Notes under the pieces: generated by a model | Seen by the model: the letters and a program-made list of their open reading frames with translations, nothing else | Databases searched by the model: none | What the model was told of the DNA's origin: nothing | Translations under genes and position numbers: made by a program | Shown here: positions 3,001 through 22,016 of the stretch, one piece after another | Numbering within the stretch: position 1 is the stretch's first letter | Layout: each line of letters opens with the position of its first letter | DNA from: Flavobacteriales bacterium | Lineage (GTDB): Bacteria > Bacteroidota > Bacteroidia > Flavobacteriales_D > Parvicellaceae | DNA length: 64,000 bases | Assembly: GCA_025210295.1 (NCBI GenBank) | Contig: JAOASC010000001.1 | Span: 1-64,000 of the forward strand | Reading direction: 5' to 3'

Positions 3001-6000
3001 CTAAAAACAACATCTGTATCGGTACCATTGATCTCAACTTTACCTAAAACATCAAAATGGTAAGTTCCGTTGTTTTCTGATGAAAAAATCAACTGAGAAA
3101 AATGTTTTACAGCTGTCCAAGTAACCGATGTAATGGTCCCTGTTGGGACAAGAGAAAAAGAGACACTTGTTCCATTAGCAAAAGACAAGGTTCCTGTACC
3201 AGTTGTTCCACTACTAAAACTATAAGTACCAGCACTGTATGGGTCAATTGCAGGAGTTAACCCAGTTACTTGTTCATAGACAGCAGAGGTAAAACTATGC
3301 ATATTCACTAAAGGCACACTAGCTTGTGTTAACTTGTTTTCTTCTGCCAATTCATTCAAGAAGAGTTCTAAATCTGTTGCCAATGGACAGATTCCTGTTT
3401 CTAAATAGATTCCTGCTTGTGCTTCTGCTACATAGTCGTTAACTGCTGTAGATACTGGATAGATTTCACTAGCTACTGGAAAACGACGTTGTTTGTCTTT
3501 ATAGAAACTTAATTGAAAGATGGAAGAGGGTTGGCTAGCGTTATAGTACTCTGAGCTATTGAAAAAACCTGTTGGAAAATTTGTTATGGCATTCAGACCA
3601 TAAAAACCATATAAAAATTTGTTGAAATTTGTATTATTAAATGCACCATTATAACACGTCTCATCTATTGCTATAGATTGCATGATTTCTTGCATATAGT
3701 TTGTTCGTTCTGTATTATAGATCGCCAGAATTTTAGGAAATAATTCATCTTGTTCTGCAGGTCCCATATTTAAGAAAGAATTCCACGAACAAGCATCACT
3801 TCCATACCATCTACCACATTGTTCACTCCAAGCTACAAAATCGAATAAACTTTTTCCGGAATTTTGATAATTGTTCAATGTATTCAGAAAATCAGTACTG
3901 TATGATGCTCCAACCGACAACTTAAAAAAGGGATCATTTTCTATCAGTTTTGGTAGACTACTAATATCAATCGTATTGGAGCTGGCATCTGATCCCAGTA
4001 AAAACACATAATCGGTATGACTTAAGTCGACTGTTGCTGCTGAACTATAATCACTAATATACCCTAACAACTGACTGTATTGATTACTGGTTAATTCATT
4101 TCCAGAATGTGGAGTATTTAATTGATTACACCATTGAGTAATGTAACAATACTCTGGGTGATATTGCAACAATGATGTTGCCCAATCACTTTGCCAATTA
4201 TCTACGACTTCTTGTACTGTTGAATATCCAAACAAGTTATTAAGTGTTGCTCCACTTAGTCCATTAAATACTGATGTTGTATAATCTGAAGCATTTACAT
4301 CTACGATAAAATACTGTCCATTTGGAGATACATCAGATAACATCATTTCTTCAGCTACATCACACAAAGACTTAGATACACATGGCTCCATGCAAATGTC
4401 GTATTGCTCTTGCCATGCAATTTGATCTTGAGCATCAATATCTCCATCACCATCAACATCTGCGGTTATGTTGTTTTTTTCACCAAATTGACTAATCAAG
4501 GCATTGACACAGGATTCACAACTAATATCACAATCTGTGGTATCTATTAAAGCCGAAACACTGTTATAAAAATCTTCATAAGTTAAAACGGAGGTACACT
4601 GCCCCTGTATATCTTCATAATAACGGTTGGCGAAATAATCCAACGCAGTGGAATTGACTTGTAGTTTTTTATACAGTTGAGCACTTCCAATTTCAATATC
4701 CCCAGCTTGGCTAGTATAATTTCCGGTAAGGTTTAGAGGGCTGCCATTCAACAAAGTAGATTCATTTCCAAAATCGACATTCGGAAAGGTTTGTACTGAA
4801 GAGGTAATGACATCTGTAGTTGTTGTAGCTTGAGGGATGAGCTCATTTTGACACGGGTCCATTAAACCAAAAATTAAGTCATATACATAATTATAGGTTT
4901 TTCCTGCTACGGTTAAACAAGAGTCCGAAAAATTACTACTGTTGGTTGCTGTATAGGCTAAAGCTATTTCATGATTAGATTCAAACAAACGACTTCCACT
5001 ATAGCGCAATCCGTCTTCTTCTGTTGGCAATGTAGTTCCTGAGATAAAACGATTATTATCATCAAAAGGGGTATCTGTATCAGTTGTATTTACTTTGCTC
5101 AATAAGTCTTTAGTTACAGTTGTAAAACCATTTAAAGAGCCATTTTCAGGACGTGAATCTTGAGCCATATTTACACTTTTTACCTCCTCTAATAAATTGG
5201 AGCCTGTTCCTGCTAATGCCGTTGCTATCGTCCGCCCTTGTGCATCAGTATAAGTGACACTAACCTGCCCATTGGCATCAACAACCATGTTCTTTTTATA
5301 ACGACTTTTATACCCTACATTATTTCCAAATAAAGCATCTAAATCTTCTTGATCTGGTTGACCATAAAAGTATTGCGTCTCTTTGCCACTTCCTTTTTTA
5401 TATGTTGCTCCAACTCCTGTTTGCTGTGCAATTCTTCCGGTATTATCAGGAGTAAAAGTTGTTACTGTAAAAGGGTAACCTTCTGCATCTGGCACATAAT
5501 CCTGATAGGTACCTACACCTGTTTTTTGTCCGTAATATTTTGATGCACCACTTTGGTCACTCATTGGTGGTGTTGTGGTGTTACAGGTTGCATTTTGAAT
5601 ATCAAAATGGAATTTATCATACAAAGTACCTGTATTGGCATTGATATTAAAATTTTCTACATATTTAATTGCTGCCTCATCGGAGGGAGTAGGGAGCACA
5701 TTAATTGCTGCTCTTCCCTCATAATCGTATAAGGTCTCTCCTACGATTACATTTTTGTTGGTATTAATTTGTGTGACACTTTGACGATTTCTTAAACTTC
5801 CATCAAAATAAGAGACCACATCTTTACGCTTTCCTCCTTCTGCAAATGATGTCGTTACTTGCCAGTTTTTATTTGAACTTTCGTGTCCTTGCACTTGATA
5901 CCATCCCTTACTTCCTAATCCCAATTGATATGCTCCTAGGGTTTGAACTGCTGTTAAACCTGCTGTACTCCATTTCCCTGGTAATAATTGTTCGTAATTA

Positions 6001-14843: not shown

Positions 14844-17069
14844 CTATAACTTGAATCTTAATTGTTTCACTTCATTTTTTTCATTGGTTACTTTTAAGAG
14901 ATAGTAACCATTGGCTAACCCTAAACTTGAAAAATCAATTGATAAATGATTATCACCTTGAACTATTGGTAAAACTGGTAAACTAACAGAAACTGGGGAA
15001 TTATTAAGGTCAATAATTTTATAGTTTAGATTTCCATTAGATGGTGTGTATCTTTCATAATAATGAAAATTTAACGCGTCCTCAACTAACTCATAATACC
15101 CGCCTGTTAAATGAGTATTCAATGGATAATACAAGGTATTTTTAGGGCTATAAAATGTTGTATAAATATTATTAATTTCATAGTTTGGATATCGAGTACA
15201 AACATCTACATAAAGCTCTTCATTGGGATCTACAGCTTCCGTCTTAATGAAATCAACTTTCCCATTAGGACTTAGTTTTTTATAGCTAATTTCTCCTCCT
15301 ACTCTTGTTACTTCAATAATATCTCCGGGGGATAAATTCCTTCCATACCCGTCAAATTTGTTTCCATTGATGAATACTTGATGATCTATACTTGAAAAAT
15401 GTGCTATTGTATTATAATTTGACAATCCAATCATTGCATAGAACTCATTTCCATTGACTACATAAGTTAGTTTACCATTGGCATTGGCTGGTAGTTTATT
15501 GGTTGACAAAGCTCCTGCTTGCCATGTCGGCGTATTTGCATTTGAAGTGAGGACATTGGTTGAAGCAGCTAATGTATAATTTTCTATATGCTGCCAATTG
15601 ACTTGATAACTTTCTTCTTCTTCGACTGTAAATGTTTTTACTAAAGTTTCTCCTGTTCCATCGGTTACTGTTAAGGTATAGTTACCCGCAGTTAAACCTG
15701 ATAAATCTTGTGTAGTAGCTCCATTAGACCAACTGTAACTTATTGGACTGGGGCCTGTAACATTAACATCTATACTCCCTAAAGTATTAAAGGAGCTATT
15801 TTCATGTTTTAAAATATGCTCTTCTATTGTTAAAGCTTGAGAAAAAGTTGAATAAAGCGAATTCAATTGTCTATTAAGAAAACGGATAGAAACATCTACA
15901 TATAGTTCTTTAGTAGGGTCTGTCGTTTGCTCTTTTAAGACATGTTGAACGCCATTAATATCGTGTTTACGGTAAATCATTTGATTTCCATAACGTTCTA
16001 ATATTAATGTATCTCCTATATTGATGTTTCCATACCCATCTAAAAAATGGTTATTTACTCCATAGAGGTAAAATTTGTAATCTAGAGAAGTATAAGAAGC
16101 TACTTCATTGTATTCGGAAAAACCAAACATCAAATAACTTTCATTACCTGCATAAACGTAAGTTATTTTACCATTGGTATTGGCTTCTAATTTATTGGTT
16201 GACAAAGCTCCTCCATCCCACTGATAAGAAGAATTTTTGGTAAGTTCTCCAGTTGTAGAATTTTCTTCTAAGTTTTGAATATTTCGCCAATCTACTAGGT
16301 AACTTTCTTCAGAATGAATAATAAAACTTTTAGAAAGTGTCTGGCTATTACCATCTGTTACTGTCAAAGTATAGGTTCCTGCTGACAATCCACTGATGTC
16401 TTGAGTAGTAGCTACTACGGTTCCTCCATTGGACCATGAATAAGACAACGGTGCTTCTCCTGTAACGTTGACATCTATACTTCCTAAGGTATTATTGGTT
16501 GTATTTTGATGATGTAATAAATGTTGTTCTATTGTTAATCCATCTTCAAAATCACAATGCATATTATTGAGTGAATAGTTGGCAAATCTGATTGATAAAT
16601 CGATAAATAATTCTTTTGTAGGATCTGTAGTTTCTGCTGTTAAAGTAACCTGATTACCATTTAAATGGTGTATATGACGGAATACTTGACTCCCTATTCG
16701 TTCGAGTATTAACGTATCTCCTGCGGTCACAGCTCCATAACCATCCAAATACTTGGTCGCTACACCATACAAATAAAATTTATGTAAAAAACCTGTATAT
16801 GTTGCAACTTCGTTATATTCTGCAAATCCAAACATTAAATAATGTTCACTTCCTCCAACTACATAAGTAATTTTCCCATCAGTATTAGCTGCTAATTTAT
16901 TAGTAGATAGTGCTCCTGCATCCCAAGCTGCTGTTGATGTTTTAGTCACAATATTAGTAGACGCATCAACTGAAACATTTCTAAGCAAATGCCAATTAAC
17001 CTGATGCTGCGCCAACAAGGTTGTTATTACTATTAGCTGGAATAGTATTAAAAAAATTATTTTTCTCAT
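14844..17069 (-). CDS. Secreted triple-repeat protein with SprB-like repeats and T9SS-like tail
   Basis: This 741-residue protein has a signal peptide (cleavage near LLAQ). Three copies of a roughly 150-residue module start near residues 25, 258 and 485. Each begins V(N/D)W and contains W.(A/G)GALSTNKL.AN. and DGYG motifs. After the first two copies comes an SprB-like beta repeat (SYSWSNG ... DLSGLTAGNYTLTVTDG). The C-terminal 70 residues end in GYYLLKVTNEKNEVKQLRFK, the usual shape of a type A T9SS sorting domain. It is therefore probably exported by T9SS and attached to the surface. The module looks like a ligand-binding beta sandwich, but I cannot name the ligand. Gaps of about 12-13 bases on both sides place it in the RHS operon. 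Confidence 0.8.
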   Translation of the reverse strand: MRKIIFLILFQLIVITTLLAQHQVNWHLLRNVSVDASTNIVTKTSTAAWDAGALSTNKLAANTDGKITYVVGGSEHYLMFGFAEYNEVATYTGFLHKFYLYGVATKYLDGYGAVTAGDTLILERIGSQVFRHIHHLNGNQVTLTAETTDPTKELFIDLSIRFANYSLNNMHCDFEDGLTIEQHLLHHQNTTNNTLGSIDVNVTGEAPLSYSWSNGGTVVATTQDISGLSAGTYTLTVTDGNSQTLSKSFIIHSEESYLVDWRNIQNLEENSTTGELTKNSSYQWDGGALSTNKLEANTNGKITYVYAGNESYLMFGFSEYNEVASYTSLDYKFYLYGVNNHFLDGYGNINIGDTLILERYGNQMIYRKHDINGVQHVLKEQTTDPTKELYVDVSIRFLNRQLNSLYSTFSQALTIEEHILKHENSSFNTLGSIDVNVTGPSPISYSWSNGATTQDLSGLTAGNYTLTVTDGTGETLVKTFTVEEEESYQVNWQHIENYTLAASTNVLTSNANTPTWQAGALSTNKLPANANGKLTYVVNGNEFYAMIGLSNYNTIAHFSSIDHQVFINGNKFDGYGRNLSPGDIIEVTRVGGEISYKKLSPNGKVDFIKTEAVDPNEELYVDVCTRYPNYEINNIYTTFYSPKNTLYYPLNTHLTGGYYELVEDALNFHYYERYTPSNGNLNYKIIDLNNSPVSVSLPVLPIVQGDNHLSIDFSSLGLANGYYLLKVTNEKNEVKQLRFKL

Positions 17070-17671: not shown

Positions 17672-17755
17672 TTTTGTTATAAACAGTAATTTTTAAAATG
17701 TCAGTTTTTATCAATGAATAAAACCTTCTTTACTGTTAACAAAAACAAAGCACTA

Positions 17756-17817
17756 AGTATAAAAACCTACCTAGTATAAGTACAAAAACACAGCGCTAAA
17801 ATCAGTATAAAAACCTA
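17756..17817. repeat. Two direct copies of AGTATAAAAACCTA
   Basis: Exact 14-base copies lie at 17756-17769 and 17804-17817. A related sequence (GTATAAAAACCAAC) lies upstream of the caspase-like gene at 38757-38770, with a one-base-shorter version at 38576-38588. The copies here lie about 85-180 bases upstream of the predicted RHS promoter, so they could be binding sites for a regulator. That is inference. Confidence 0.5.
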
Positions 17818-17943: not shown

Positions 17944-17977
17944 AAAATGACTGCTATCAAAAGATAGCAGTCATTTT
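17944..17977 (-). terminator. Rho-independent terminator of the TGT-like operon
   Basis: A perfect 15-base-pair hairpin (arms 17944-17958 and 17963-17977, loop AAAA) is followed on the minus strand by a run of T. It lies about 40 bases after the stop of the TGT-like gene. With T on one side and A on the other it could also work in the opposite direction. Confidence 0.85.
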
Positions 17978-18013: not shown

Positions 18014-19447
18014 TTATCGTTTGGCAATTTCCATACAGTATTGAATGGCTAAACTCCATTTTTTACTCCCTACCTTAGTATAGCGATCAACTTGATATTC
18101 CATCCATTTTTCTAGCTTTTTATTATCGTCCATTCTTCTTCTAACTGAATTACAAATATTCTTTAAGATCCAATAATTATGTCCAGAACGGCAGATTCTA
18201 AGGGTTCGAATCATCTCATCATCCCCACCTCTTAATTTGGTAAAAAATGGAATATATTGTTCAACTAGCGCTTGATTCTCTTCTAAATCTTTTACAACAT
18301 CTTTTACATTCGAAGAGGATGTAACTCCCAACGCTGCTCGTAACTTAGCCCAATCTGATGGAAACTTTTGTTCAAAATCTTTGAAAAATGGTGTTCTTGA
18401 AGTATAAGGCTCATTATTAATCAGTTGATAAGCAGCCACCTTATTCATATCCATTTTCATAAAAGCCGACCTTGATCCATACAATTTCCCTGCGAAAGCA
18501 TCCTTAAACGGAGCTGTAGAATCAATACTAATGGCTCTAGACTTACTGAATAGCCCCCCAATTAAAGCCAATAAAATAGGTGTCCCTACTCCCAAAATAT
18601 GCAACGGCAAATCGTTTTCCATAGCATCATTGGTTCCTTTAGCTATTGCAGCTGCTATCAGATAAGCTTCAGGTAATTTTTCACCGAACTCGATTACTTC
18701 TCCTCCCATATCGAGTGATGTAATCCATCTTCGACTCTTCATTGGTCCACCAAAACTAATTGCATACCCTTCGGCTTGTGCCTGTTTTCCAATTTTTGCG
18801 GCCTGATAAGCACTTGCATAATCATAAGAATGTAGTACCAAAAACTTATTGACAGCATCTAATTGCTTTTGGCTCCCAAAATCACCTTGAGCTTGAGCAT
18901 TAAACAACTTAACAGAAGCTAACTGATGCTTTTCAATCGCTGAAGCAACAGGCTCAAATACTGGATGCAACAACCCACACATCATGATTACTGTTATATT
19001 AAAATCTTCTAAACCAATCATATAATCAGGATTGATTTTGAATTGTTCTTCTATAACTTGATTAAAGTTAACCGAACTTTCGACATGACTACAAGCTTCA
19101 TTAATCTCAAGAATAAGAGCTGCTCGTTCAGCTAATGTAGCTTCACTTACCGCTCCCGTTCTTTTTTGCTCACTAATGGCTTTATTAAGAATTACATTTC
19201 CATTTTTTTCAAATTTTCGTGCAATTTTTTTCATTCTAGAGAAATTACCGTTATCACTAATCAATAAATTTCTCCTTTTCTTAACATAGTTAGCCAAGTC
19301 AATGCTCTTGGCATCAGTATAATATTCTGAGAGTAAATAACCATCGCGTTTAAGCGTTAAAGCATAATCTTTATTGGCTGTGACTTCACTTAAATTAGAA
19401 ATAAAGATGTATTTATCTCTTTTATAATTTGGAATATTTCTTTTCAT
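18014..19447 (-). CDS. TGT/DpdA-superfamily protein (divergent)
   Basis: This 477-residue protein carries a series of motifs matching the TGT barrel in the right order. SDNGNF (64-69) corresponds to DSGGFQ. PDYMIGLED (140-148) fits the strand with the substrate-side Asp. YAISFGGP (228-235) corresponds to the GG(L) motif. LGVGTP (285-290) equals the GVGTP motif. SIDSTAP (307-313) aligns with the catalytic-Asp strand, in the FDSA style of archaeal TGT and DpdA. SGHNYWILKNI (421-431) matches the LHN helix supplying the zinc-ligand His. The CxCxxC zinc motif is absent; only C419 and C432 flank the His. TGT enzymes exchange guanine for a 7-deazaguanine in tRNA, and DpdA does so in DNA. I see no preQ0 pathway gene here, so the substrate is unknown. 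It is the last gene of a three-gene operon, 12 bases after the membrane peptide gene. Confidence 0.7.
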   Translation of the reverse strand: MKRNIPNYKRDKYIFISNLSEVTANKDYALTLKRDGYLLSEYYTDAKSIDLANYVKKRRNLLISDNGNFSRMKKIARKFEKNGNVILNKAISEQKRTGAVSEATLAERAALILEINEACSHVESSVNFNQVIEEQFKINPDYMIGLEDFNITVIMMCGLLHPVFEPVASAIEKHQLASVKLFNAQAQGDFGSQKQLDAVNKFLVLHSYDYASAYQAAKIGKQAQAEGYAISFGGPMKSRRWITSLDMGGEVIEFGEKLPEAYLIAAAIAKGTNDAMENDLPLHILGVGTPILLALIGGLFSKSRAISIDSTAPFKDAFAGKLYGSRSAFMKMDMNKVAAYQLINNEPYTSRTPFFKDFEQKFPSDWAKLRAALGVTSSSNVKDVVKDLEENQALVEQYIPFFTKLRGGDDEMIRTLRICRSGHNYWILKNICNSVRRRMDDNKKLEKWMEYQVDRYTKVGSKKWSLAIQYCMEIAKR

Positions 19448-19459
19448 ATTACCTATAAA

Positions 19460-19759
19460 TTACTGGGCATCTACACAGTCACAATAAGCTTCCAATGCAT
19501 CTGCATAAGCTGCTTCTGCAGCTTCATATTCATTCCAAGCATCTTCCATTCCATCACCTGCAACTACTCCTCCTGCTAAAGCAATTCCATACGATACATA
19601 AGCACCTGTACCTCCCGAACCGATAAGTACAGCTCCAGCAGCTCCAATTGCTGAAGCTCCTGCTAATACCACTCCAGCAGAAGCCCACCACCAGTCTGTA
19701 TTTTCATTTTCTAAATTCTCCTTTGCTCTTTCTAGAGCTTGTTCTAACGCATCACACAT
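19460..19759 (-). CDS. Small glycine-zipper membrane peptide
   Basis: A 99-residue acidic protein. An N-terminal amphipathic helix is followed by WWW and two hydrophobic stretches full of Gly and Ala (about residues 27-50 and 53-68, with repeated GxxxG/AxxxA spacing). An acidic helix follows, and the protein ends in CDCVDAQ. There is another Cys at residue 2. No signal peptide precedes the first stretch. A hydrophobic hairpin with glycine zippers is known from pore-forming peptides, holins and glycine-zipper outer-membrane proteins, but I do not recognise a family. It sits one base after the helical protein and 12 bases before the TGT-like gene. Confidence 0.65.
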   Translation of the reverse strand: MCDALEQALERAKENLENENTDWWWASAGVVLAGASAIGAAGAVLIGSGGTGAYVSYGIALAGGVVAGDGMEDAWNEYEAAEAAYADALEAYCDCVDAQ

Positions 19760-19760
19760 A

Positions 19761-21209
19761 TTAAATAGTTGTTTTAAGTTTTAATAAATTTGGACGATCG
19801 AATGTGATCGTATACTTCACAGGGTTAATGATTCCGTCATTCCCCGAACTTCCACTATATACAGCAGTTAAATTATGTGGAACTAATTCATACACTTTCT
19901 TTAACTCCAACCTTAGCCAAGCTTCCCAATTTTGTTGCGATAAATCACCTAAGTTTAATCGTTTTATAGATACAGCTTTATCCCCGTTAGCTTCTGGATT
20001 CGATTTTAAAAACTCTCCATGAATATAGACAAATGAATCCTCTACAATTCCACCAGAATCTAACTTAATATAAGGTAAACAGACTTTCATTGTTCTTCCG
20101 TTAGCGTCTTCAATATCTGCTGTTGACAACACTTTATTTCTACTTAAATGCCTTACATTTAAATTTTTAACCTTACCTCTAATAATCAACTCTCTTCCAT
20201 CATAACTTGTTGGATTATTGATTAAATCTTTAATTGAAGTTAAACTTCCAGACCATACCACTTTTTCGTCTACCAACAAATTCTTTTGCTTATACAAATC
20301 ACTAAACAATTTTAACTCATGGTGCCAATCGTTTAACCATAATAAATGTTGACTTGAAGCCTTGTAGAAAATCATTTTTTGTGATAAATCTGTTGCCTTC
20401 ATTGCCTTTTTTCCTGTAGAATAAAATGAAGACGTGGAATTTTGCCACTGTTGATTAGTATCGATCAAAATAGGAAGTACTTCTTGCGTTAATTTAGTAT
20501 CGATCCATTGATCAAGATTATTTAAAAATCGAGTAACATCATTAACATCACCTAATTTTATATTTCTGTAAATTGTAGACAACCTTCCCTCAAGACTATA
20601 CTTTAACGTCCTAATGCGAGTAGACACATTAAAACTAAGGTTTTGATTTACACTAGCATCTTTATTATAACTAGCATATACACTACTGTTATAATAATAC
20701 ATATAGATAGCCAAATGTCGCTCAAAAGCATAATTCAAGGTATTTGCAATCATCTCCAATTGCTTTAAGTAATATTTATACAGGTTTAAGCCTCCTGTAT
20801 TTCCTATTCGTTTCACAATATCATCAGCTGTTGCAGTCGGAACATTATTGGTTGATAAATCATTCTCAATTGCAGTTTTAATCGATGGCCAATCATTTGA
20901 TGTTTGTGGTTCAGGACAATAATCTTTAAAACCTCCCTTTAATTGATACAACCGTTCTACTAAATCATTAACATCTGCTTGATGATTTTTAATTTGAAGT
21001 AATTTAGTGGTTACGCCAGCCAATTGAGTATCTGAGAAAACTTTCAAATCATGCCAATGATTGGTCACAATATGTTGATACACTTTTCCACTTTCTACAG
21101 GAATAATTGGAATCGAAATATCCCTATATTCGGCCGTTACTCGGCCAGAATATGCATTCACTTTGGTTACGAATGCATCTAGTCCTAATTTAAAATTTTG
21201 TTCTGTCAT
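19761..21209 (-). CDS. Helical protein with C-terminal OB-like domain, first gene of TGT-like operon
   Basis: A 482-residue protein with no signal peptide. Residues about 1-320 look almost all alpha-helical and rich in Tyr, Trp and Asn (HWHDLKVFSDTQ near 50 and WHHELKLFSDLYKQ near 300 are related segments, suggesting an internal duplication). Residues about 325-415 look like an OB fold: LIIRGKV, then DANGRTMKVCLPY, then VYIHGEFL, the strand pattern of nucleic-acid-binding OB domains. The last 60 residues are a separate strand-rich tail. I know no named family for the whole protein. The tight operon with the TGT-like gene suggests it could bind that enzyme's nucleic-acid substrate, which is inference. 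Confidence 0.7.
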   Translation of the reverse strand: MTEQNFKLGLDAFVTKVNAYSGRVTAEYRDISIPIIPVESGKVYQHIVTNHWHDLKVFSDTQLAGVTTKLLQIKNHQADVNDLVERLYQLKGGFKDYCPEPQTSNDWPSIKTAIENDLSTNNVPTATADDIVKRIGNTGGLNLYKYYLKQLEMIANTLNYAFERHLAIYMYYYNSSVYASYNKDASVNQNLSFNVSTRIRTLKYSLEGRLSTIYRNIKLGDVNDVTRFLNNLDQWIDTKLTQEVLPILIDTNQQWQNSTSSFYSTGKKAMKATDLSQKMIFYKASSQHLLWLNDWHHELKLFSDLYKQKNLLVDEKVVWSGSLTSIKDLINNPTSYDGRELIIRGKVKNLNVRHLSRNKVLSTADIEDANGRTMKVCLPYIKLDSGGIVEDSFVYIHGEFLKSNPEANGDKAVSIKRLNLGDLSQQNWEAWLRLELKKVYELVPHNLTAVYSGSSGNDGIINPVKYTITFDRPNLLKLKTTI

Positions 21210-21390: not shown

Positions 21391-21960
21391 CTACATTACT
21401 TTATAATATAAAATGGTAGCACAATGACATTGCTGTTCTTCTTGCTGTTTAGATGGGCATTTAAACAAACCTTGTTCACAATCTTCTTTCCACAAATCCG
21501 AATATTCGCCCAATACTTTAAAGTGAAAGTAGTGAGCTATTCTTTCCATATTTATTTGTTTTTTTTGCTTCCAAGCATACATTATAAATCCATATTCTCC
21601 CTGAAAGTGGTCTATTGCTCGTTTTATCAAAAATCTACCAACTCCTTTTTTTCTATAACTTGAAGCAACCACCATAGTATCCATACAAACGATTTTATCA
21701 TTCAAGGCATTTTTAATCGAATCATCACCAACTCTATTCACCACTTCATCTGGTGAAGTACGGTAAAAAACTAAAAATGCTATCAACTCATGATTTTCAT
21801 TAATTAGACACCAACCATCATATTGTTGAGATACTATAACTTGATCAAAATAATCATGATTTAAATACCCCTCCCCTAAGTGAGGTGCTGCCAATAGCAC
21901 CAACTCATCAATTCTATTTTTAGTCAACGGAGTTAAGTTAAAATTCATGGATAAAGTCAT
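21391..21960 (-). CDS. GNAT-family N-acetyltransferase
   Basis: The central part reads VCMDTMVVASSYRKKGVGRFLIKRAI. Its R.kGVGr.L motif is the acetyl-CoA pyrophosphate-binding loop of GNAT enzymes, and the preceding strand is typical. The tail holds several Cys and His (CPSK...QCHC). An in-frame ATG at 21996 would extend the protein, but that would leave only about 20 bases to the divergent phosphatase gene. The family fold begins near NLTPLTK, so I use the ATG at 21960 (21948 is also possible). The substrate cannot be told from sequence. Confidence 0.75.
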   Translation of the reverse strand: MTLSMNFNLTPLTKNRIDELVLLAAPHLGEGYLNHDYFDQVIVSQQYDGWCLINENHELIAFLVFYRTSPDEVVNRVGDDSIKNALNDKIVCMDTMVVASSYRKKGVGRFLIKRAIDHFQGEYGFIMYAWKQKKQINMERIAHYFHFKVLGEYSDLWKEDCEQGLFKCPSKQQEEQQCHCATILYYKVM

Positions 21961-21980
21961 CTTTAAAGCTCTAAAATTAC

Positions 21981-21988
21981 TAATATTG
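21981..21988 (+). promoter_or_regulatory. Weak candidate -7 element for the Ppx/GppA gene
   Basis: TAATATTG differs from TAnnTTTG by one base and lies 29 bases upstream of the phosphatase start codon. No good TTG partner is visible. Confidence 0.3.
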
Positions 21989-22016
21989 TGGATCATTAAT
22001 AATAAAACAACAAATT

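Follow-up and report, generated by a model that had tools for sequence, protein, structure and literature searches.

We examined a three-gene operon of a Flavobacteriales bacterium (assembly GCA_025210295.1, contig JAOASC010000001.1) within a 64,000-nucleotide stretch of DNA that was analyzed as a whole and is referred to here as the window. Its three open reading frames (ORFs) lie on the minus strand. The first gene (19761..21209) encodes a 482-residue protein with a helical N-terminal part and an OB-like C-terminal part, the middle gene (19460..19759) encodes a 99-residue acidic protein with a Gly/Ala zipper, and the third gene (18014..19447) encodes a 477-residue protein which lacks the zinc cysteines of tRNA-guanine transglycosylases (TGTs) and which is assigned to the TGT superfamily by its structural model, PDB matches, and alignment. 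The ORFs are separated by 1 and 12 nt, and a terminator-like hairpin (17944..17977, minus strand) with a 15-pair stem, a 4-nt loop, and a T tail starts 37 nt past the last stop codon. A preliminary description of this DNA had proposed a single three-gene unit with a shared strong terminator; the ORFs and the hairpin bear this out, and the neighboring genes are kept together in homologous loci. TGT enzymes insert 7-deazaguanines into tRNA or, in the case of DpdA, into DNA. From the evidence below we consider it nearly certain that the locus encodes a TGT-fold protein within a cassette of fixed plus variable genes.

Searches with the 477-residue protein alone found no homologue among plasmids, phages, and IMG/VR sequences or in an initial scan of GTDB contigs, and none was found in a phylum-level sample of genomes or in another sample of relatives. 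An order-level sample of 399 genomes contained two full-length homologues in the 398 other genomes (53% and 49% identical), and a scan of GTDB contigs with an alignment yielded seven loci, including these two. The named hosts are Desulfosediminicola flagellatus and Reichenbachiella faecimaris, while metagenome-assembled hosts belong to Flavobacteriales, Crocinitomicaceae, Rhodobacteraceae, Gammaproteobacteria, and Prolixibacteraceae. Homologues are rare and patchily distributed over three phyla, including Desulfobacterota and Pseudomonadota, the rarity being estimated roughly, from short peptide patterns and a sampling of genomes. In the tree, the window protein is sister to the Desulfosediminicola protein (support 99/99). 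Since the nearest relative found thus belongs to another phylum, the sequences indicate that the cassette moves horizontally.

In order to place the 477-residue protein we compared it with known families. Taken alone, it had no match above cut-off in Pfam, NCBIfam, PHROGs, or PADLOC and no sequence match in the PDB; PF01702, TIGR00430, and the NCBIfam DpdA model NF041059 gave no match at E <= 10. The last model is narrow, because phage DpdAs themselves score E 0.018 or nothing on it. The host's own TGT gave one BLAST segment, at only E 6e-4. Profile comparison with a TGT alignment gave a weak signal (a score of 36.7 for the single sequence, where shuffles reached at most 21, and only 29.4 against 25.4 for shuffles when the family profile was used), and comparison with a DpdA alignment was no better than shuffles. 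Because the sequence-profile comparison by itself is weak, the TGT assignment is based on the fold. A single-sequence AlphaFold model was unusable (pLDDT 42), and AlphaFold2 run on the alignment of eight homologues gave a model with pLDDT 82.8 and pTM 0.82. The preliminary description had claimed a divergent TGT/DpdA-like barrel and had named structure prediction as the check, with any fold other than a TIM barrel counting against the claim; the model obtained is a TIM barrel of the TGT type, and the 50 PDB matches that Foldseek listed are all enzymes of the TGT superfamily, among which DpdA (7ui4) ranks twelfth. A second structural aligner gave Z 24.7 to archaeosine TGT (1iq8) over 314 residues and 22-23 to the Z. 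mobilis TGT, and the viral structure matches of the model include a phage TGT. By its predicted structure, the protein is a TGT-type TIM barrel and a divergent member of the TGT superfamily.

Residue conservation was read from an eight-row alignment of the window protein and seven homologues, in which the window protein is 47-57% identical to the others; the homologues as a group show 46-86% identity. The eight sequences all have D65, E147, D148, H206, H283, the LGVGxP motif, D309, S310, and H423. Both catalytic aspartates of TGT have equivalents among these residues (codons are given on the minus strand): Asp65, within SDNGN (19253..19255), corresponds to TGT Asp102 and ends the predicted strand 61-64, while Asp309 (18521..18523) corresponds to the nucleophile Asp280, ends the predicted strand 306-309, and is followed by Ser as in DpdA. 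Glu147-Asp148 (19004..19009) are the equivalents of D156/E157, involved in base recognition by TGT. His206 (18830..18832) stands at the position of TGT Gln203, where the phage DpdAs examined also have His ('FHxGE'), and His283 (18599..18601) is the equivalent of DpdA His196 in the numbering of phage 9g, in which the His of 'VHGFG' is residue 196. D65, H206, and D309 are predicted to sit at strand ends, where the active-site residues of TGT lie. The TGT-barrel motifs quoted in the preliminary description are all present in the protein, and they exceed chance, with key positions invariant across the three phyla and a predicted fold of the TGT type; the survey of homologues it had called for shows that Asp65, Asp309, and His423 as well as the neighboring genes are retained. 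Its two remarks on the divergence of the protein also agree with our data: the cysteines are at 119, 157, 419, 432, and 471, with no CxCxxC, and the zinc cysteines (the CxCxxC...H site) are kept by no homologue in the alignment; Ser310 and His283 are residues of the archaeal/DpdA style. Compared with canonical and archaeosine TGTs (PF01702; 1iq8, 1j2b, 2pwv), the protein shares the fold (Z 22-25), the Asp102/Asp280 equivalents, LGVGTP, and the His-Asn motifs, but it lacks CxCxxC, has no PF01702 score, carries His in place of Gln203 and Glu at the position of Asp156, and occurs in a host that already owns a canonical TGT.

The protein has in common with DpdA (7ui4; NF041059) the TGT barrel, the Asp pair, His196, and Ser after the nucleophile, and Dpd systems resemble the cassette in a probable association with conflict. 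The structural match to 7ui4 and the residues His206, His283, and Ser310 would fit a DpdA-like marking enzyme, which would swap guanine for a 7-deazaguanine in host DNA (or in a special RNA) as a self mark guided by the OB protein, with the middle gene as an accessory or as a penalty for unmarked DNA. The presence of YhhQ-type precursor transporters in six of the eight host genomes points in the same direction. His196 is conserved in DpdA and absent from DpdA2 (PMC6884629), and is therefore not strictly DpdA-defining. In addition to the missing NF041059 match, the 477-residue protein is 160 residues longer than the DpdA of phage 9g, many of its homologues carry a glycosylase-like N-terminal domain, and its partners, unlike those in Dpd systems, are an OB protein and a variable effector slot; neither preQ0 genes nor Dpd partners are seen beside the operon, and none of DpdB-K was recognized in the loci read, where only some of the neighbors were scanned with models. 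The supply of substrate also speaks against such marking. Among the eight host genomes, only those of the gammaproteobacterium and of Desulfosediminicola have a full-length QueC; the other six lack it, although most host genomes are drafts, in which absence of a gene is no proof. The preliminary description had seen no linked preQ0 gene, and a search of the whole window genome (about 95% complete) likewise detected no QueC, QueF, or YhhQ, a QueC match being read as an asparagine synthetase and a QueF match as FolE. Because these three proteins were not found there, insertion of host-made preQ0 is doubtful in the window host; the protein there may instead depend on salvage, use another base, or recognize foreign bases. 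Overall, we regard DpdA-like marking as unlikely. As a separate observation, a canonical TGT is encoded elsewhere in the window genome, where a TGT search finds only that copy, although none of the proteins QueC, QueF, and YhhQ was detected as a source of its tRNA queuosine precursor.

The genes that accompany the TGT-like gene fall into a constant and a variable part. An OB-family protein is encoded beside the TGT-like gene in all eight loci. Leave-one-out hidden Markov models recover the missing OB member at E 1.5e-17 to 7e-75, with no unrelated ORF better than 0.0045; for the 482-residue window protein the value is E 1.5e-17, and the next unrelated ORF is at 0.07. An OB-like domain had been suggested for this protein before, and it is backed by weak matches of the region at residues about 317-461 (19827..20261, minus strand): the C-terminal part matches the OB region of DNA polymerase III alpha in NCBIfam, although weakly (E 0.0044), and the protein matches a DnaE-sized ORF in another genome (G042) at E 3.6e-4, while the family profile reaches E 1.2 with PolC (3f2b). 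This likeness to polymerase III alpha is weak, but it recurs in separate searches.

At least one variable gene is found with the TGT-like and OB genes in all eight loci, in the order OB, variable, TGT in most of them and TGT, OB, variable in L077 and L074. The variable genes are mutually unrelated by BLAST, except for those of L080 and L081 and for one 24-residue stretch. The window protein of 99 residues has Cys2 at its N-terminus, Cys93 and Cys95 at its C-terminus, a net charge of -15, and transmembrane-like windows starting at residues 26-31, and is a putative membrane-active effector. In L079, L076, and L082 the slot encodes small helical proteins that are unrelated and have Cys close to each terminus; L080 and L081 encode long coiled coils related to each other; and L077 encodes two calpain-like proteases with small partners, which match Pfam Peptidase_C2 at E 1e-15 and 1e-14 and keep intact Cys-His-Asn/Asp catalytic motifs. 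L078 encodes two variable proteins that are 64% identical over 173 N-terminal residues and differ in their C-termini, and a lipoprotein-like gene comes after each of the two. An MBL-fold-like protein encoded 430 bp upstream of one cassette (L082:5012-6583), weakly similar to RTasMBL, Lamassu LmuA, and 6A-MBL, was left outside the unit and may be a separate defense gene.

This arrangement could also be explained by polymorphic effectors, that is, variable proteins acting as toxins or helical carriers sent to other cells and followed by immunity lipoproteins, with the OB and TGT-like proteins processing or loading them. The pair in L078, the Cys residues near both ends of small variable proteins in most loci, and the duplicated calpain proteases with small partners are consistent with this explanation. 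We give it a low probability: no secretion apparatus is seen beside any locus in the neighborhoods read, a TGT barrel whose catalytic residues are intact would be no obvious chaperone, and an amidase-like reading of the variable C-terminus in L078 was dropped for want of support. Housekeeping is less probable still. A TGT paralogue modifying tRNA or rRNA in a particular niche, next to unrelated genes, would agree with the TGT-superfamily fold, which among the matches listed is closest to archaeosine tRNA TGT, but the window genome already has a canonical TGT, the distribution is very rare and patchy, and the TGT-like gene always comes with a variable slot and a member of the one OB family.

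Six of the eight TGT-like proteins, excluding those of the window and Desulfosediminicola, carry about 215 additional N-terminal residues that resemble DUF6308 and 8-oxoguanine glycosylases (OGG). The match to DUF6308 (PF19827) has E 2e-5 and 25 bits, below the cut-off of 27.3; the Ogg-HhH model gives E 0.012 for one member of a wider set, and there is no match to PDB sequences. The likeness to OGG-type HhH-GPD glycosylases lies in a conserved motif, 'GTSKLLHF..P..YPIWDSRV', which presumably corresponds to the helix-hairpin-helix Lys and the GPD Asp of these enzymes. Stand-alone DUF6308/OGG-like proteins are not encoded beside OB or TGT-like genes; they adjoin DarT/DarG-like, RES-Xre-like, and macro-domain genes (L097:6310-6882 with 3567-5236; L084:5184-6591; L092:5724-7472), and the domain thus appears to ride along repeatedly in toxin-antitoxin or defense islands. 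In L094 (5837-6565 and 6608-7240) an HhH-GPD-like protein ('GYSTGTKIVTFLNPNNCGVLDS') directly precedes a DUF6308-like gene, forming a tandem glycosylase-like pair. We found no mention of DUF6308 in the open-licence papers searched.

In the open-licence papers searched, conflict loci that include a TGT homologue are on record for Dpd systems and for BREX-related capture (BRC) systems (PMC12839542), in neither case with OB or variable-slot partners, and no description of a TGT/OB/variable-gene cassette was found there. The BRC systems with TGT and GNAT resemble our locus in that a TGT homologue occurs in a conflict locus, here a probable one, spread sparsely over many taxa, and in that a GNAT gene lies near the window operon. 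They appear to differ from it in their other components: HerA/FtsK translocase, PglZ, DUF6079, DUF4007, and STAND proteins are not apparent in the neighborhoods, which were read and not searched with models. The GNAT acetyltransferase gene of the window (21391-21996) precedes the operon by 181 nt on the same strand; a link between the two, suggested by BRC systems, was not adopted because no adjacent GNAT gene was recognized in the other loci. Downstream of the operon, an AT-rich gap (17739-17817) contains short imperfect direct repeats, with AGTATAAAAACCTA occurring twice and a ACAAAAACAAAGCACTAA-like sequence occurring twice; long direct repeats of the kind that typically flank mobile elements were not found around the operon. 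Further along, positions 14844-17069 encode a 741-residue protein in which a unit of about 230 residues occurs three times. With its Por_Secre_tail-like matches, it has the appearance of an unremarkable surface protein in a bacterium with type IX secretion.

The TGT fold, the kept pocket residues, the OB partner in every locus, the unrelated middle genes, and the patchy spread, together with the DUF6308/OGG-like fusion and the occurrence of the stand-alone domain near RES, macro-domain, and DarTG-like genes, suggest that the cassette is probably a conflict system. We propose, with a probability of roughly 0.4, that it represents a new type of such system: a base-exchange protein with the TGT fold, to which a glycosylase-like domain is often fused, would work with an OB protein to sense or edit a base in nucleic acid and to control interchangeable effectors. 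The TGT-fold and OB proteins would be the fixed part that faces the nucleic acid, acting on a base in DNA or RNA or recognizing it by base flipping and exchange, assisted in many homologues by the fused domain. The variable slot would encode the effector, which may be a calpain protease or another domain elsewhere and in the window would be the 99-residue Gly-zipper peptide, damaging the membrane. The fixed pair might restrain the effector, or free it upon meeting unusual nucleic acid such as invading DNA with modified guanines, and the released effector would stop the infected cell. The order from trigger through base exchange or recognition to effector release is our best guess, which we rate just short of even odds. 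Several points weigh against the proposal: neither an activity nor an interaction nor a phage phenotype is known for the cassette; PADLOC defense models match none of the three operon proteins; the toxin identity of the 99-residue protein is read from composition alone; the window version has no glycosylase-like domain; and the lipoprotein-like genes of L078 fit exported toxin-immunity pairs better than internal suicide effectors.

A branch of TGT proteins which keeps the catalytic core, occurs mostly in genomes without QueC, has a glycosylase-like fusion in many hosts, and is accompanied by swappable effector-like genes would widen the roles of this fold. If the cassette is indeed a new type of conflict system, it would be the first link of TGT chemistry to swappable killer proteins, and its compact three-gene form makes it well suited for testing whether base exchange senses or punishes foreign nucleic acid.

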